A stretch of DNA of 11,489 nt, taken from Pseudomonadota bacterium. Lineage in GTDB: Bacteria; SAR324; XYD2-FULL-50-16; JAHJRI01. The stretch spans positions 1 through 11,489 of the forward strand of contig JAKSDL010000491.1 of the NCBI GenBank assembly GCA_022360105.1. Direction: 5' to 3'. Position numbers and translations under genes: made by a program. The number at the start of each line of letters is the position of its first letter. Positions within the stretch are counted from its first letter, which is position 1. This document shows positions 1-11,095 of the stretch, one piece after another. Below the pieces are notes generated by a model. It was not told the origin of the DNA, ran no database searches, and worked only from the letters and a program-made list of their open reading frames with translations.

Positions 1-2214
1 ATTTAAATCATGCTTGGCAATAGTTGCATCCTTGATCAGGTTGAAATAGCTTTCCTGCTTTGTTTCATCAAGTTCAAATTCACAATCTTCCATTGCAGAC
101 CGACATTTGATAATTCCGGCTTTCCTCTTCGGTTTCTGCTGCTTTAGTTTGGAAATACGGTGTTTTATGTATTCCTTATGATGTTTTTCATATGCTTGGC
201 TTTCCAGGTCTGAAACCTTAATGGCGTTTACTTTGGTATTGAATTCATCAATCCAGGCGCAGCCTATAACATTGTTGGAGGCATCGTGCATTTTGTTGTA
301 GACCGACCATCCGGATCTATATGCATTATAATATCCCTCAGCCATATCAGGTGGAATCGTCGCTGAAGATATCATCACCTTCCGACCTAACATACCTGCT
401 AAATGAATAAGTCTTCCGATTGCGATTAAATCGGCTCCTGTGAAATCGTCTATTTCATCAATGACAAGGTCTGAAGACATCAGTCGCAGTGAAGGGAGAA
501 TGAATCGACCTCCTCGTGTTGTTTCGGTTGCTCCCATCATGTGATCTATCGTGCAGGCCAGTACCGGAGCATGGAGGAACTTTCTATCCTTTTCAGAACT
601 CAGAACTGTGGATAGTTTCTCTTCTGGAATGTCACAATCAAAATCAATGTCTTCATCCATCAGCGCTTCAAGGGAAGACTCGGAACCGGATGATGCAAGG
701 CTTTCTGATTGCTCATCTTTTTTCGCCTGCTTATGCAAGTCAATCACAGCTTTTGAACCGATCAACACTGCCAATTCCGTATCATCAAGTCCGATTCTTT
801 CACGATACTCGTCTCCTGTTTGCAATGTCAGGGTTCTTAACCCCAGTGCCAGTACGTAGCGCAAACTTTGTCCGTCTTCAGATAAAGCCCTCATAACCTT
901 AGCATTAGCGACCGTTTTTCCACATCCTGTACTAGCCATATTGACCGCAAAAAAGCCGCATTTTTCAACATTTTCTTTGCTTTTCCAGCGGTTGATTTGC
1001 TCAACCGCTTTGTCTTGCCAGCGGTAAAGAGTGGAACTTGATCTTCTTAGAAATCGTATATCGTCAGTACGAGGAAGTTGTTTTTCAAAAACCGGTAAAT
1101 TATGAGCTATATTGATTGCAGTTTTAGCAACGTGAAAAAGATGTTCATCCAACTTTTGTCTGTAACCGGAATGATCACTATTAGCATACAAACTAACAGG
1201 CTCTTTCCATTTTTTATCTGCCTCCTTTTGAGAAGAGTAATAGTGATCGCCTAACATCAGGCAAAGCCTTGTGTGGTGAAGTATGGATCGATAGCTCCCA
1301 TCGTCATATGCCTCCTGAATCAGATTTAAGTTGTTTAGTAAACGTGATGCATGTTTCTGGACTTCTTTTCTCCATTTTCCACCTGATTCCAGCATTAATC
1401 CCTTTGGAAACGAAAAGCAGCTATCCAGTCTTTTCTTGTATTCATCCTCATCATAACGGTTTTCGTATCCCCAACTTTTTGTAATTCGCTTTAACATAAT
1501 TTCGATGTTGTCGGCATGATTATCTCTCCATTTATCGAGGTTATCGGCAACTGGAAGCCGATGATGGGCGAGTATCAGCCAACAAATTATTTTTGCTGCT
1601 GAAGGCAGATTATAGAGTGGCTTTTTCTCCTGGTTTTTTGCAATTTCAATGATTTTCGTTTCTTGAACCTCACCTTTGATTAAGTCAGTTAACCATTGTT
1701 CATCTGAATACCCGCCATTGTGCCGGATCAGGGCACGTAACAATAAACAAGTTATCCACTCGTGTCGTAAAGGATCTCCTTTGTATCTGTTCCCGCTTTT
1801 TGGATTTAACTTCTCTTGAAACAATGCGGAAGATTTACCCCAGTCATGGAATAGTCCAACAAACGCTGTCAGGGATTTGATTACAGGCAAATACTTCCAG
1901 TCATTCTCGAACTGATTATTCAAAATGTCTTTTTCAGTATAGTTCACCGGTACAAACCCTTGATCATTAAATTTATTCCTGTTTCCTACCACCCATAAAA
2001 ATTGGCTGCGAGATCGACTTCTGATCCAGTGACAGCTGACTGCGGTGTTTTTGGTAGCCGTTTTACGCAGTAGCTTTTTGACGGCTTTGAGCCCCTCTTC
2101 GGTGATGATGGTTTGCCAGGTGTTGTCGCCAATCCTATTGGCAAACGCGTCCAGCACCCTTCTGGTTTTTTTAAGGGCTTTCTTTTCACATTGAGAGACG
2201 AAGGTTACCATCAT
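1..2214 (-). CDS. cas3f: Type I-F Cas2-Cas3 fusion nuclease-helicase (5' 738 codons; C-terminus beyond window edge)
   Basis: I translated the minus strand from the ATG at 2214; the frame is open without a break to position 1, giving 738 residues. The family is usually about 1,050-1,100 residues, so roughly the last third is outside. Residues 1-95 form the Cas2-like domain typical of I-F fusions (SQCEKKALKKTRR, NTWQTIIT, KTATKNTAVSCHWIR). The HD nuclease begins near residue 110, with H123-D124 in LFHDWGK and the histidine pair H217-H218 in ILAHH. The SF2 helicase part shows Walker A STGCGKT at 428-434, DEID at 586-589, and MISSA as motif III. The protein is recruited by the Csy complex to degrade DNA and also joins Cas1 in spacer acquisition. 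A second ATG follows at once (2211). A purine run (AGAAGAG) about 12 nt upstream is the only possible ribosome site. It is separated from cas1 by 385 bp, although these genes normally adjoin, and it has its own promoter. Confidence 0.96.
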   Translation of the reverse strand, partial: MMVTFVSQCEKKALKKTRRVLDAFANRIGDNTWQTIITEEGLKAVKKLLRKTATKNTAVSCHWIRSRSRSQFLWVVGNRNKFNDQGFVPVNYTEKDILNNQFENDWKYLPVIKSLTAFVGLFHDWGKSSALFQEKLNPKSGNRYKGDPLRHEWITCLLLRALIRHNGGYSDEQWLTDLIKGEVQETKIIEIAKNQEKKPLYNLPSAAKIICWLILAHHRLPVADNLDKWRDNHADNIEIMLKRITKSWGYENRYDEDEYKKRLDSCFSFPKGLMLESGGKWRKEVQKHASRLLNNLNLIQEAYDDGSYRSILHHTRLCLMLGDHYYSSQKEADKKWKEPVSLYANSDHSGYRQKLDEHLFHVAKTAINIAHNLPVFEKQLPRTDDIRFLRRSSSTLYRWQDKAVEQINRWKSKENVEKCGFFAVNMASTGCGKTVANAKVMRALSEDGQSLRYVLALGLRTLTLQTGDEYRERIGLDDTELAVLIGSKAVIDLHKQAKKDEQSESLASSGSESSLEALMDEDIDFDCDIPEEKLSTVLSSEKDRKFLHAPVLACTIDHMMGATETTRGGRFILPSLRLMSSDLVIDEIDDFTGADLIAIGRLIHLAGMLGRKVMISSATIPPDMAEGYYNAYRSGWSVYNKMHDASNNVIGCAWIDEFNTKVNAIKVSDLESQAYEKHHKEYIKHRISKLKQQKPKRKAGIIKCRSAMEDCEFELDETKQESYFNLIKDATIAKHDLN

Positions 2215-2325: not shown

Positions 2326-2355
2326 AATATAGACTTATTTTTCATTATTTGCCAA
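2326..2355 (-). promoter_or_regulatory. Predicted sigma70 promoter of cas2-3
   Basis: On the minus strand, -35 TTGGCA lies at 2355-2350 (5 of 6 to consensus) and -10 TATATT at 2331-2326 (5 of 6), separated by 18 bp. Transcription would begin near 2319 and leave a leader of about 105 nt before the cas2-3 ATG. This is the best promoter match in the 385-bp gap and points only at cas2-3. Its -35 box contains, on the opposite strand, the CC PAM and the first two bases of the site matched by the nearby pseudo-spacer. The promoter is predicted by eye; no start site has been mapped. Confidence 0.6.
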
Positions 2356-2378
2356 GTAATTTTATAGTTGAAATAAAA
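2352..2378 (+). promoter_or_regulatory. Self-target (PAM plus partial protospacer) of the mini-array guide, over the cas2-3 -35 box
   Basis: CC at 2352-2353 is the consensus I-F PAM, on the non-target strand immediately 5' of the protospacer. From 2354 on, the sequence equals the spacer (2530 on) at positions 1-5, 7-11 and 13-17. It differs at 6, 12 and then 18-21. Type I Cascade complexes ignore every sixth guide base, so the effective pairing is continuous for 17 positions. Beyond position 17 the match collapses, which predicts stable binding without the full R-loop needed for Cas2-3 attack. The site begins within the -35 hexamer and extends upstream, so bound Csy complex would block RNA polymerase. 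Its operator function is inferred. Confidence 0.72.
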
Positions 2379-2384
2379 TCATAG

Positions 2385-2400
2385 GTACAAAAATATGTAC
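2385..2400. repeat. Inverted repeat GTACA-N6-TGTAC upstream of the cas2-3 promoter
   Basis: GTACA (2385-2389) and TGTAC (2396-2400) form a perfect 5-bp dyad with a 6-bp spacer, about 30 bp upstream of the cas2-3 -35 box. The flanking ATAGGTACA (2381-2389) recurs on the minus strand at 4949-4941, upstream of the WYL regulator gene. It could be an operator for that regulator, but the arms are short and the region is AT-rich. Confidence 0.3.
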
Positions 2401-2440
2401 AGAGTAATAATTTTGTTTACATTGATCATGATATTGCAGA

Positions 2441-2465
2441 TGCTTTATGCAAAACCTGCTTTATG
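2441..2465 (+). repeat. Direct repeat of TGCTTTATG in the mini-array leader
   Basis: The 9-mer TGCTTTATG occurs at 2441-2449 and again at 2457-2465, a 16-bp period, 37 bp upstream of the first repeat. It lies where a leader or promoter for the mini-array would be. No convincing -35/-10 pair could be assigned here: TTTACA at 2416-2421 is a good -35 hexamer but has no matching -10 at 16-18 bp. Confidence 0.35.
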
Positions 2466-2501
2466 AACAAGGGCTCTTTTGTCAGCATCAAGTAATTCTT
2501 T

Positions 2502-2582
2502 ATTTACTGCCGTATAGGTAGCTTAGAAAAAGTATTTTTAAAGTTGCTCAAATTATGTACTGCCGAATAGGCAGCTTAAACT
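2502..2582 (+). CRISPR. Two-repeat degenerate type I-F mini-array inside the cas1/cas2-3 gap
   Basis: Repeat 1 spans 2502-2529 and repeat 2 spans 2555-2582; both resemble the 28-nt I-F repeat. Each has the Cas6f hairpin: CTGCC-GTATA-GGTAG (2507-2521, one G-U pair) and CTGCC-GAATA-GGCAG (2560-2574, perfect). Repeat 1 ends in the handle CTTAGAAA (2522-2529); repeat 2 ends in a diverged CTTAAACT. The 5' four bases of both repeats are diverged (ATTT and ATGT for GTTC). Thus the parts kept are those needed to excise one guide: the first handle and both stems. The spacer (2530-2554) is 25 nt instead of 32. The array reads opposite to the cas genes and converges on the 3' end of cas1. The main array is not in the window. 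Confidence 0.88.
2522..2574 (+). ncRNA. creR: Predicted CreR-like cas-regulating guide RNA (processed form)
   Basis: Cas6f cleavage at the 3' base of each hairpin would release a 53-nt RNA: an 8-nt handle (2522-2529), 25 nt of guide (2530-2554) and a 20-nt 3' part of repeat 2 with a perfect stem (2555-2574). Canonical I-F crRNAs are 60 nt. The guide pairs with the cas2-3 promoter site at 2352-2370 with a PAM. In known CreR systems a crRNA-like RNA with a partially matching pseudo-spacer lets Cascade repress its own operon, so repression is lifted when Cascade is titrated by array crRNAs or anti-CRISPRs. The role here is inferred from this match. Transcription and processing are unproven, and no clear promoter or terminator was found. 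Confidence 0.68.
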
Positions 2583-2599
2583 TTCATACTCTATCACAA

Positions 2600-3550
2600 T
2601 CAAACCTCCCAATCCTTCTTCAGAGCCACAGCCTTTACCTGATCGAACATGAAGTCCAGGGCTTTGTGGTCAGTGAATGCTTGCAGGCATTGTTGGCGGA
2701 ATTCCTGGTCGGTAGCGTTCTCTTTAGCGCAGATGAAGGACCAGGGGAGCACAATGGCATCTTTGACCAGATCAGCTACGTCAAATACCAACGCGCCGCG
2801 ACGGGTTTTACCGTGCATCACGGCAAAACCATGTGGAATGCCCAAAACCCACAAAGTGCAAGCGGCCAATCCATAGGCCAGGTAATTCCCGTGATTTAAA
2901 AAGCTGTTGGCAAGATCGGAGGACTCCCTGTTCCTGGTAAATTCCTTATTGAGGGTGATATCTGCGGCTAGTTTATAAAGCCTTTTTGTCAGTTCAGCCT
3001 CCAACTGGAGTAGTTTACCAACACTGGAAGCTTGTTCAATGTTGGATTTTGCGATTTCGAGGGCTTGCTGGACAAGCTCATCATCAGACATAAATCCTTC
3101 CTGTTTGAGATCCCTGCTTTTAGTCCACGTAGAAATGATGAAATCGATACGAGCTTTTTGAAAAACTTTTGCTACGGCAAGTCTTTTATCAGCATCAAAC
3201 CAGAAGGATAGCCAACCCTGAACATACTCAGTTGGTCGATATTCACTTTGGGGGTTGAGCCATTCTACTTCGGCTGCTGCCAACAAAGGTGTACCTCCCC
3301 CACCGCAAAAACCGATCAACACACCTGCAGAGGCCAGCATTCTGACTGCAGCCTGGGTTATAGACGTTCCTGTACCGAGCATTATCACAGTGGTATTGGC
3401 AATGGGGATGTTCCAATATTGATACTCCTTCCTATCTTCAGTGAGATACAATACACGACCGTCTTTTTGCATCACCCGACAATGTTCAAGATAATAGAGG
3501 TTGGCCCGTTTCGAATGCAAGATCGCTTTTAAGTCAGTCAGCTGTTCCAT
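2600..3550 (-). CDS. cas1: Type I-F CRISPR integrase Cas1
   Basis: This 316-residue protein is near the usual I-F Cas1 length of about 320. Cas1 forms the integrase that inserts new spacers at the leader end of the array, working in I-F with the Cas2 domain of Cas2-3. The N-terminal beta domain includes YWNIPIANTTVIMLGTGTSI (46-65) and the glycine-rich FCGGGGTP (81-88). The helical catalytic domain keeps the expected metal ligands: E184 in LQLEAELTKRLY, H246 in AVMHGKTRRG, and D257 and D260 in VFDVADLVKD. The start at 3550 fits the family N-terminus (TDLKAILHSKRANLYYLEHC), though no clear Shine-Dalgarno precedes it. Upstream (305 bp) is a WYL regulator on the same strand. Downstream, instead of abutting cas2-3, it is followed by 385 bp containing the mini-array and a separate cas2-3 promoter. 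Confidence 0.97.
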   Translation of the reverse strand: MEQLTDLKAILHSKRANLYYLEHCRVMQKDGRVLYLTEDRKEYQYWNIPIANTTVIMLGTGTSITQAAVRMLASAGVLIGFCGGGGTPLLAAAEVEWLNPQSEYRPTEYVQGWLSFWFDADKRLAVAKVFQKARIDFIISTWTKSRDLKQEGFMSDDELVQQALEIAKSNIEQASSVGKLLQLEAELTKRLYKLAADITLNKEFTRNRESSDLANSFLNHGNYLAYGLAACTLWVLGIPHGFAVMHGKTRRGALVFDVADLVKDAIVLPWSFICAKENATDQEFRQQCLQAFTDHKALDFMFDQVKAVALKKDWEV

Positions 3551-3855: not shown

Positions 3856-4860
3856 TTACCTATACTTGTCACTTAAGTTTTTCGCTATCTGCTTAAACTC
3901 CTTTCTGAGCATCTCCGGTTCCAAAACCTCCACGCCATCCCCAAAACCCAGCAACCACCATTTCAGGGCTGAACCAAACATTACTTTGGCTTCAAGCAAA
4001 ACCCTGCCGTCTTTTTGTTCGCTTAGTTTTTGATCGGATGAGAGTTTTGACTCGTATAAGTGGCCGGCAATACTGCTATCGAATAGTGCCTTGAGAATTA
4101 TGGGCTTGTTTTCAATAAGATATTGAAAAGCACCCTGTTCGATGTACGATTTCAATTCAAAACCCTTAGGAAGATCGGCAGGTTGTTCTGATATAACTGC
4201 TGATTTTATACGGTGTAATGCAAAATGTTGGATGGTGGCATTGTCCTTTTTTGTCGCCACAAGATAGACAACTTCCTGGTTGAAAACCAATCCCAGGGGA
4301 TTTAACACATACTGACTGGCACTTTTGGTATTTCGCTTTAAATAATCTATTTGAAGGATTGTTTCTTCGATGGTGCATTTAAAGACTGTTTCAAACACTT
4401 CCTGATTTATCTTTGGGGGTATCAATTGTACCCCCCTTGGAATGACGGATATTTTCTTGTTCCATTTGCCCCAGGTCGATTTTCCTTTTCTTTTAAGCAA
4501 GTGCTCCGCCCGTTGGAAATGGTGAGTCATAAAATTGAGCATGGACTGCGGTATCAGCCTTTTAAGAAACGATTCCACCAAGTTAAAGGTCAGTGCCGTC
4601 ATAACATCCATTTTCGGCATATCCCACAAGGACGCATCCCTGCTCCAACACCAGTATTTGGCATTTGAATGCGGTGTCTTGAAATCCACAATAGGAAAAA
4701 CCGAGCTGGTCTTATTCAAATCTCTTTGAATAGTTCTTAAATCCATCTTAAACCCTTCGTCCTCAAGTCGCTCCCTTAGGACATCCGCTGTAACAGAACC
4801 AGGCTCTCTCGGAATCATTCGCAGCATTACAATATTTCGAAGAATGGTTTCTTTTGGCAT
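3856..4860 (-). CDS. WYL-domain transcriptional regulator (HTH-WYL-WCX), CRISPR-associated
   Basis: This 334-residue protein has the YafY/PafC-like layout. Residues 1-65 form a winged helix-turn-helix with the recognition segment DLRTIQRDLNKTSSVFPI (40-57). The WYL domain spans about 152-225, with NPLGLVFNQEVVYLVATKKD (187-206), where the signature tripeptide reads VYL at 198-200. The WCX C-terminal part spans about 253-332, with the characteristic LGFGDGVEVLEPEMLRKEF (304-322). WYL proteins are ligand-responsive DNA-binding regulators, often coded next to CRISPR-Cas and other defence loci, and are thought to sense nucleic acids or nucleotides. It lies upstream of cas1 on the same strand with a 305-bp gap, so it is a plausible regulator of this locus. 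Whether it represses or activates cannot be told. No good Shine-Dalgarno precedes the ATG. Confidence 0.9.
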   Translation of the reverse strand: MPKETILRNIVMLRMIPREPGSVTADVLRERLEDEGFKMDLRTIQRDLNKTSSVFPIVDFKTPHSNAKYWCWSRDASLWDMPKMDVMTALTFNLVESFLKRLIPQSMLNFMTHHFQRAEHLLKRKGKSTWGKWNKKISVIPRGVQLIPPKINQEVFETVFKCTIEETILQIDYLKRNTKSASQYVLNPLGLVFNQEVVYLVATKKDNATIQHFALHRIKSAVISEQPADLPKGFELKSYIEQGAFQYLIENKPIILKALFDSSIAGHLYESKLSSDQKLSEQKDGRVLLEAKVMFGSALKWWLLGFGDGVEVLEPEMLRKEFKQIAKNLSDKYR

Positions 4861-11021: not shown

Positions 11022-11095
11022 GAAGACTCCTCTAATTAACAATTGATTATAAAATGGGACATGTTTGTATAAACAACCGTTGTGGTTCAAGTTTA

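Follow-up and report, generated by a model that had tools for sequence, protein, structure and literature searches.

A likely CreR-type mini-array between cas1 and cas2-3 of a type I-F1 CRISPR-Cas locus, whose guide matches the predicted promoter of cas2-3

RNAs that regulate cas genes, known as CreR, were reportedly described by Liu et al. in 2023 (Cell Host Microbe), and Shmakov et al. (2023, NAR) are said to have found mini-arrays that partly match cas promoters, chiefly that of cas8, including one I-F1 mini-array that reportedly acts as a regulatory guide. In the available portions of published accounts, a CreR is a crRNA-like RNA that is made from a mini-CRISPR within a cas locus, partly matches a cas promoter, and reuses the effector as a repressor (PMC12737573, PMC13131331, PMC12948488). 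CreR is assigned to types I-B, I-E, and V-A in one review and to type I generally and V-A in another (PMC12737573, in part). A further module, CreTA, has been proven for type I-F in Acinetobacter, where a 20-nt guide with a CC PAM, left unpaired at positions 6, 11, and 18, acts in a Csy-dependent, cas3-independent manner; the module is located in the cas3/csy1 gap, and the gene that it represses encodes a toxin RNA and is targeted downstream of its promoter (PMC10097628, in part). Phage-borne single repeats, called Racr, mimic the I-F repeat, like the repeats described below, and are processed by Cas6f; they differ in that guide and target are absent and in that they block effector assembly (PMC10651486, in part).

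Here we describe a mini-array in an 11,489-nt stretch of DNA (contig JAKSDL010000491.1; hereafter, the window), on the minus strand of which a type I-F operon begins, with cas1f followed by a partial cas2-3 (Table 1). The locus appears to share the CreR features listed above: two repeat-like sequences surround a short guide within a cas locus and outside any ordinary array, and the guide has a partial match, flanked by a PAM, in a cas promoter, which in this case is predicted. Unlike the CreR systems covered in the available review text, it belongs to type I-F1, lies between cas1 and cas2-3, is aimed at cas2-3, and is known here from sequence alone. With Acinetobacter CreTA, the mini-array shares two degenerate repeats, a short guide, a CC PAM, an operon gap as its location, 17 paired nucleotides, and free positions near 6, 11/12, and 18 (PMC10097628, in part). 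It does not resemble an ordinary CRISPR spacer, which is 32 nt long and matches its source over the full length, since the guide has 25 nt and pairing ends at position 17.

Table 1. Features of the cas1/cas2-3 junction and their positions in the window.
Feature	Position	Strand	Basis
cas1f	2600..3550	-	TIGR03637, PF01867
cas2-3 (cas3f), first 738 codons; start codon at 2214, continues past window end	1..2214	-	TIGR02562, PF21384
psiR1, I-F repeat-like, 5-bp hairpin, intact 5' handle CTTAGAAA	2502..2529	+	repeat-pair scan; expected hairpin when folded alone
Guide (spacer), 25 nt; match confined to first 17 nt	2530..2554	+	guide-target comparison
psiR2, second repeat-like sequence; hairpin retained, handle degenerate	2555..2582	+	repeat-pair scan, folding
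Predicted 53-nt crRNA-like RNA after inferred Csy4 cleavage	2522..2574	+	positions of the two hairpins and cleavage rule
CC PAM (2352-2353) and matched target (2354-2370)	2352..2370	+	guide-target comparison, shuffles
Predicted cas2-3 promoter TTGGCA-18-TATATT, 10/12, sigma-70-like; -35 box (2355-2350) contains the PAM	2326..2355	-	promoter scan
Best plus-strand promoter-like site TTGCCA-19-TAAAAT, 10/12, overlapping the target; possible source of mini-array RNA	2349..2379	+	promoter scan

The two genes are 385 nt apart in the window; in 52 of the 78 loci with a measurable gap (window included, among the matches listed) cas1 and cas2-3 overlap by 4 bases. Both repeats form a hairpin when folded singly, and the minimum-energy fold of the whole 81-nt stretch lacks the psiR1 hairpin, which counts against the reading that we favor. 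The 53-nt RNA was predicted by applying the Csy4 cleavage rule. Cleavage by Csy4 according to the same rule has been reported for Acinetobacter CreA (PMC10097628, in part). Immediately upstream of cas1 lies a gene for a WYL-domain regulator (3856-4860, minus strand); a WYL gene also adjoins cas1, divergently, in a Methylobacter plasmid (L116).

The original prediction held that the guide matches the plus strand at 15 of 17 positions next to a CC PAM, with guide positions 6 and 12 as the only mismatches and no pairing after position 17. Each of these statements, coordinates included, was reproduced, guide positions 18-21 being unpaired; over 18 nt the score is 15/18. Within the window, the runner-up sites reach 12/17, all without CC, and the 25 best sites include no second CC-flanked site above 11/17. 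We compared the match with 20,000 dinucleotide-preserving shuffles of positions 2215-2501, a stretch of 28% G+C. A CC-flanked match of at least 15/17 occurred in none of them (maximum 14), while 12 contained such a match irrespective of PAM, about 1 in 1,700. Thus, it is the PAM and the mismatch pattern that carry weight.

We looked for similar arrangements in two samples of loci. The first, chosen by Cas1 similarity, comprised the best 80 genome loci and 4 viral loci, and when these were scanned for paired repeats lying apart from ordinary arrays, 18 mini-arrays besides that of the window were found, an array fragment (L030) having been removed; the scan found none in the 4 viral-contig loci. 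A CC-flanked match to the guide's own gap was present in 17 of the 19 mini-arrays from the best 80 loci, window included. These 17 targets lie 23-148 nt before psiR1, and each outscores both its own cross-locus maximum and every one of 200 guide shuffles. An array end (L065) and a cas2-3/csy1 mini-array (L069) have no target and were counted as misses. For the second sample, 390, 301, and 369 genomes, groups that overlap and include the centre genomes, were searched with an exact pattern, which gave hits in 3, 19, and 6 genomes, respectively. Here 20 of 22 new mini-arrays match, among them every one of the 19 whose 3-kb locus contains cas2-3 or csy1 sequence; the misses are L104 and L106. Removed before this test were L085-L089 and L112-L114 (known loci found again, one irregular array, and L088, the stretch of which has no cas genes), and two further loci (L115 and L116) stand outside all counts, L116 having only a weak match (12/18); this, like the missing target of L069, counts against the reading that we favor. 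The cross-locus control reached the observed score for both misses and for L094, L097, L098, and L107, which are related loci with similar targets. When ordinary 32-nt spacers of the same loci were compared with the gaps, L065 being omitted, none exceeded 11/15 in 300 tests; those mini-array guides that were scored over 18 nt reached 12-15, with the exception of L069 at 10.

Three mini-arrays show a match on the opposite gap strand. The guides of L027 (10136-10158) and L075 (14526-14548) may represent another mode or CreTA, and that of L090 has a CC-flanked 16/18 match on the opposite strand at a distance of 189 nt, in a 3-kb stretch without a cas2-3, cas1, or csy1 hit.

A pairing profile was compiled from 31 loci representing 27 guide clusters. 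It leaves out the four loci without a target (L065, L069, L104, and L106), the three with an opposite-strand match, and L092, L094, and L096, whose guides are identical to those of L057, L033, and L042, respectively. Pairing is complete (100%) at positions 1-5, falls to 42% at position 6, 35% at position 12, and 32% at position 18, and is 82-100% at the remaining positions from 7 to 16, 71% at position 17, and 23-50% at positions 19-24. Because the choice of targets ignored positions 6, 12, and 18 and everything beyond, the low rates there are not a selection effect; the high rates elsewhere partly are. Mismatches 6 and 12 had been interpreted as bases flipped out by Cascade, of which an every-sixth-base pattern is a trait, and the 31-locus profile bears this out. 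The unpaired positions 6, 11, and 18 of Acinetobacter I-F CreA resemble the same pattern (PMC10097628, in part).

The comparison of spacers and targets across loci, which had been set beforehand as a test able to refute the prediction, came out in its favor. Unrelated guides still match their own gaps, and in loci that are close relatives guide and target change together, as at position 2, where T is replaced by C in both between L033 and L097. This further CreR feature, a guide-target pair that is kept while its sequence changes, was seen in loci other than the window's closest listed Cas1 relatives (P0002-P0010, 83-96% identical). Outside positions 6 and 12, we counted 220 matched and 115 unmatched changes over 69 pairs, numbers that are inflated because targets were selected by match, loci are shared between pairs, and duplicates are included; we therefore draw support for covariation from the close pairs alone.

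That the target lies in a cas2-3 promoter was at first an assumption, which is now backed by the predicted minus-strand site. Sites that resemble promoters occur often in DNA of this kind (3 in 2150-2650 versus 2.2 expected). A promoter-like site that scores 8/12 or more against sigma-70, reads towards the cas gene, and places its -35 box at the PAM is found in 24 of the 31 loci, compared with 5 and 6 in two equally wide control windows; the 7 loci below this mark include two of the four junction cases described below, L004 (7/12) and L073 (5/12), which counts against the reading that we favor. On the cas strand of these loci, the PAM complement is followed by TTGA..., and T/A-rich -10 letters appear 17 nt past the hexamer. 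In the window, the sequence TTGCCAA at 2349-2355 is nearly a mirror of itself, so that -35-like boxes stand back to back on both strands with the PAM at their center. As the best plus-strand promoter-like site overlaps the target, the guide of the window may also repress itself. No convincing promoter was found directly before psiR1 of the window, another point against the favored reading; the -10 of a 9/12 site there (2479-2508) falls within psiR1. In many loci (L004, L033, L050, and L107 among them) psiR1 is preceded, at a distance of 2 nt, by a -10-like hexamer, a placement that would start the RNA within the first repeat, leaderless; unlike several relatives, the window has no convincing hexamer there.

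The commonest site for a mini-array is between cas2-3 and csy1. Most loci in our collection are accordingly of the cas8f (csy1) kind that Shmakov et al. reportedly described, whereas the guide of the window aims at cas2-3. Among the loci listed, a rarer group of four has its array at the cas1/cas2-3 junction: the window, L004 from Amphritea atlantica, L037 from an uncultured gammaproteobacterium, and L073 from a Methylococcaceae MAG. The four guides are unrelated in sequence, and each matches its own gap (16/18 in L004 and 15/18 in both L037 and L073). The target lies 148 nt from psiR1 in the window versus 39-54 nt in the other three, which counts against our preferred explanation. In L037, both gaps are present and each holds one mini-array (11031-11053 and 14735-14757), with different guides that each match their own gap. 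The second sample placed 18 of its 19 arrays with cas genes nearby between cas2-3 and csy1, the remaining one (L093) lying before csy1 in a stretch without cas2-3. The exact-pattern search of the 390, 301, and 369 genomes found no further junction case, so that the junction type is either rarer or more degenerate than the pattern. Among the loci listed, 4 of 21 cas1/cas2-3 gaps longer than 200 nt (window included) hold a detectable mini-array; of ten such gaps viewed by eye, several hold other genes (toxin-antitoxin-like, Fic-like). In L004, 36 nt separate cas2-3 from the start of csy1, and the open csy1 frame of L073 overlaps cas2-3. Thus, a promoter blocked by the guide probably serves the nuclease and the effector together, and csy genes downstream of cas2-3 may also be affected, a suggestion drawn from L004 and L073, as the window ends inside cas2-3.

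Based on these observations, we consider it quite likely that the mini-array encodes a CreR-type crRNA-like RNA that leads the type I-F1 Csy complex to the predicted cas2-3 promoter and represses it without cutting. The repeats, guide, PAM, target, promoter-like site, and a geometry that recurs with different sequences are present in the DNA; from them we infer transcription, Csy4 processing, Csy binding, and repression. Transcription across 2502-2582 would be followed by Csy4 cleavage after each hairpin, and the resulting 53-nt RNA (2522-2574) would load into Csy. The complex would then bind 2352-2370 and block the -35 box, lowering expression of cas2-3 and of any csy genes read from the same promoter. 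Since I-F1 R-loops of up to 26 bp leave Cas2/3 off (PMC7296934, in part), pairing over 17 nt should not trigger Cas2/3, and the binding without cleavage put forward in the original prediction agrees with this published biochemistry. Free Csy that loads the guide would turn cas expression down, and occupation of Csy by crRNAs or anti-CRISPR proteins would lift the repression. The same logic is given for CreR in the available text of reviews, where uptake of the effector by crRNAs and anti-CRISPR proteins leads to derepression (PMC12737573, PMC12948488).

We considered whether the mini-array is instead a CreTA module. In that case, the array would be the antitoxin CreA, guided Csy would mainly repress a small gene for a toxin located between cas1 and cas2-3, the cell would depend on its own CRISPR effector, and any effect on cas2-3 would be secondary. 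The proven Acinetobacter system makes this plausible for type I-F, and the published LoGeW2-3 CreTA, which our mini-array scan recovered, has about 120 nt between target and psiR1, closer to the distance in the window than to that in the other junction loci. Between target and mini-array, moreover, lies a strongly hydrophobic ORF of 23 codons (2395-2466, plus strand) with an SD-like AGG, and the target is overlapped by the plus-strand promoter-like site. In shuffles (n = 2,000), an equally long ORF with an ATG start arises in 19% and one that also has a GRAVY of at least 1.5 in 0.1%, by thresholds set post hoc. The minus-strand leader was searched for ORFs by program up to 2351. However, the Acinetobacter toxin ORF is divergent from creA (PMC10097628, in part), whereas the ORF in the window, a candidate toxin gene, is co-directional with the array. 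The strongest minus-strand promoter-like site at the target reads into cas2-3, with the PAM inside its -35 box, and a large target distance is also seen in L101 (264 nt), where a -35 box lies at the PAM. We therefore regard a CreTA module as rather unlikely.

A combination of both roles, in which one Csy complex would have three outputs, appears quite unlikely to us. Here cas2-3 (and with it the effector operon), the gene of the guide itself, and the small hydrophobic-peptide gene at 2395-2466 would all be shut off, the PAM being central in the TTGCCAA/TTGGCAA pair of -35 boxes and the peptide gene lying in the leader of the guide's gene. If true, the array would be a nuclease thermostat and an addiction antitoxin, uniting CreR and CreTA in one locus.

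It is very improbable that the mini-array is a functionless, decaying remnant of an ordinary array with a self-acquired spacer. The degenerate psiR2 handle and the short spacer, 25 instead of 32 nt, are what decay might leave, but a self-acquired spacer should match over its full length, whereas here the match ends at 17 and has gaps at 6 and 12. The same pairing profile in 31 loci, together with the absence of any score above 11/15 in the 300 ordinary-spacer tests, largely excludes this reading. Finally, a chance match in A+T-rich DNA, to which the low G+C content of the gap and the 12 PAM-free shuffle hits lend some color, is almost certainly not the explanation given the absence of CC-flanked hits, the mismatch pattern, and the recurrence across loci, and as a general account it is refuted by own-gap matches in 17/19 and 20/22 mini-arrays.

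As far as the sequence tells, then, the window carries the structural features of CreR, and we view it as a variant, in junction and target, of a known class of mechanism. The original prediction needs qualifying: the CreR class is established, and I-F mini-arrays with CC-flanked partial targets have been published as CreTA (PMC10097628, in part), so that novelty may lie solely in the present locus and in what it targets. An array that sits between cas1 and cas2-3 and is aimed at cas2-3 was not met in the literature searched, which consisted of partial texts and excluded the key CreR and mini-array papers.

If the CreR reading is true, the nuclease-helicase gene itself would be under RNA-guided feedback, whereas Acinetobacter CreTA represses a toxin RNA instead. 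The 31-locus set also suggests a rule by which such arrays could be searched for: an array antisense to the operon, a CC PAM at or beside the -35 of a cas promoter, and about 17 paired nucleotides, of which positions 6 and 12 are exempt. Arrays would seem to occur wherever a gap in the operon is wide enough for a promoter, be it cas1/cas2-3, cas2-3/csy1, or, as in L037, both. Because the array is placed in such a gap, the feedback model would be testable by one short sequence change.
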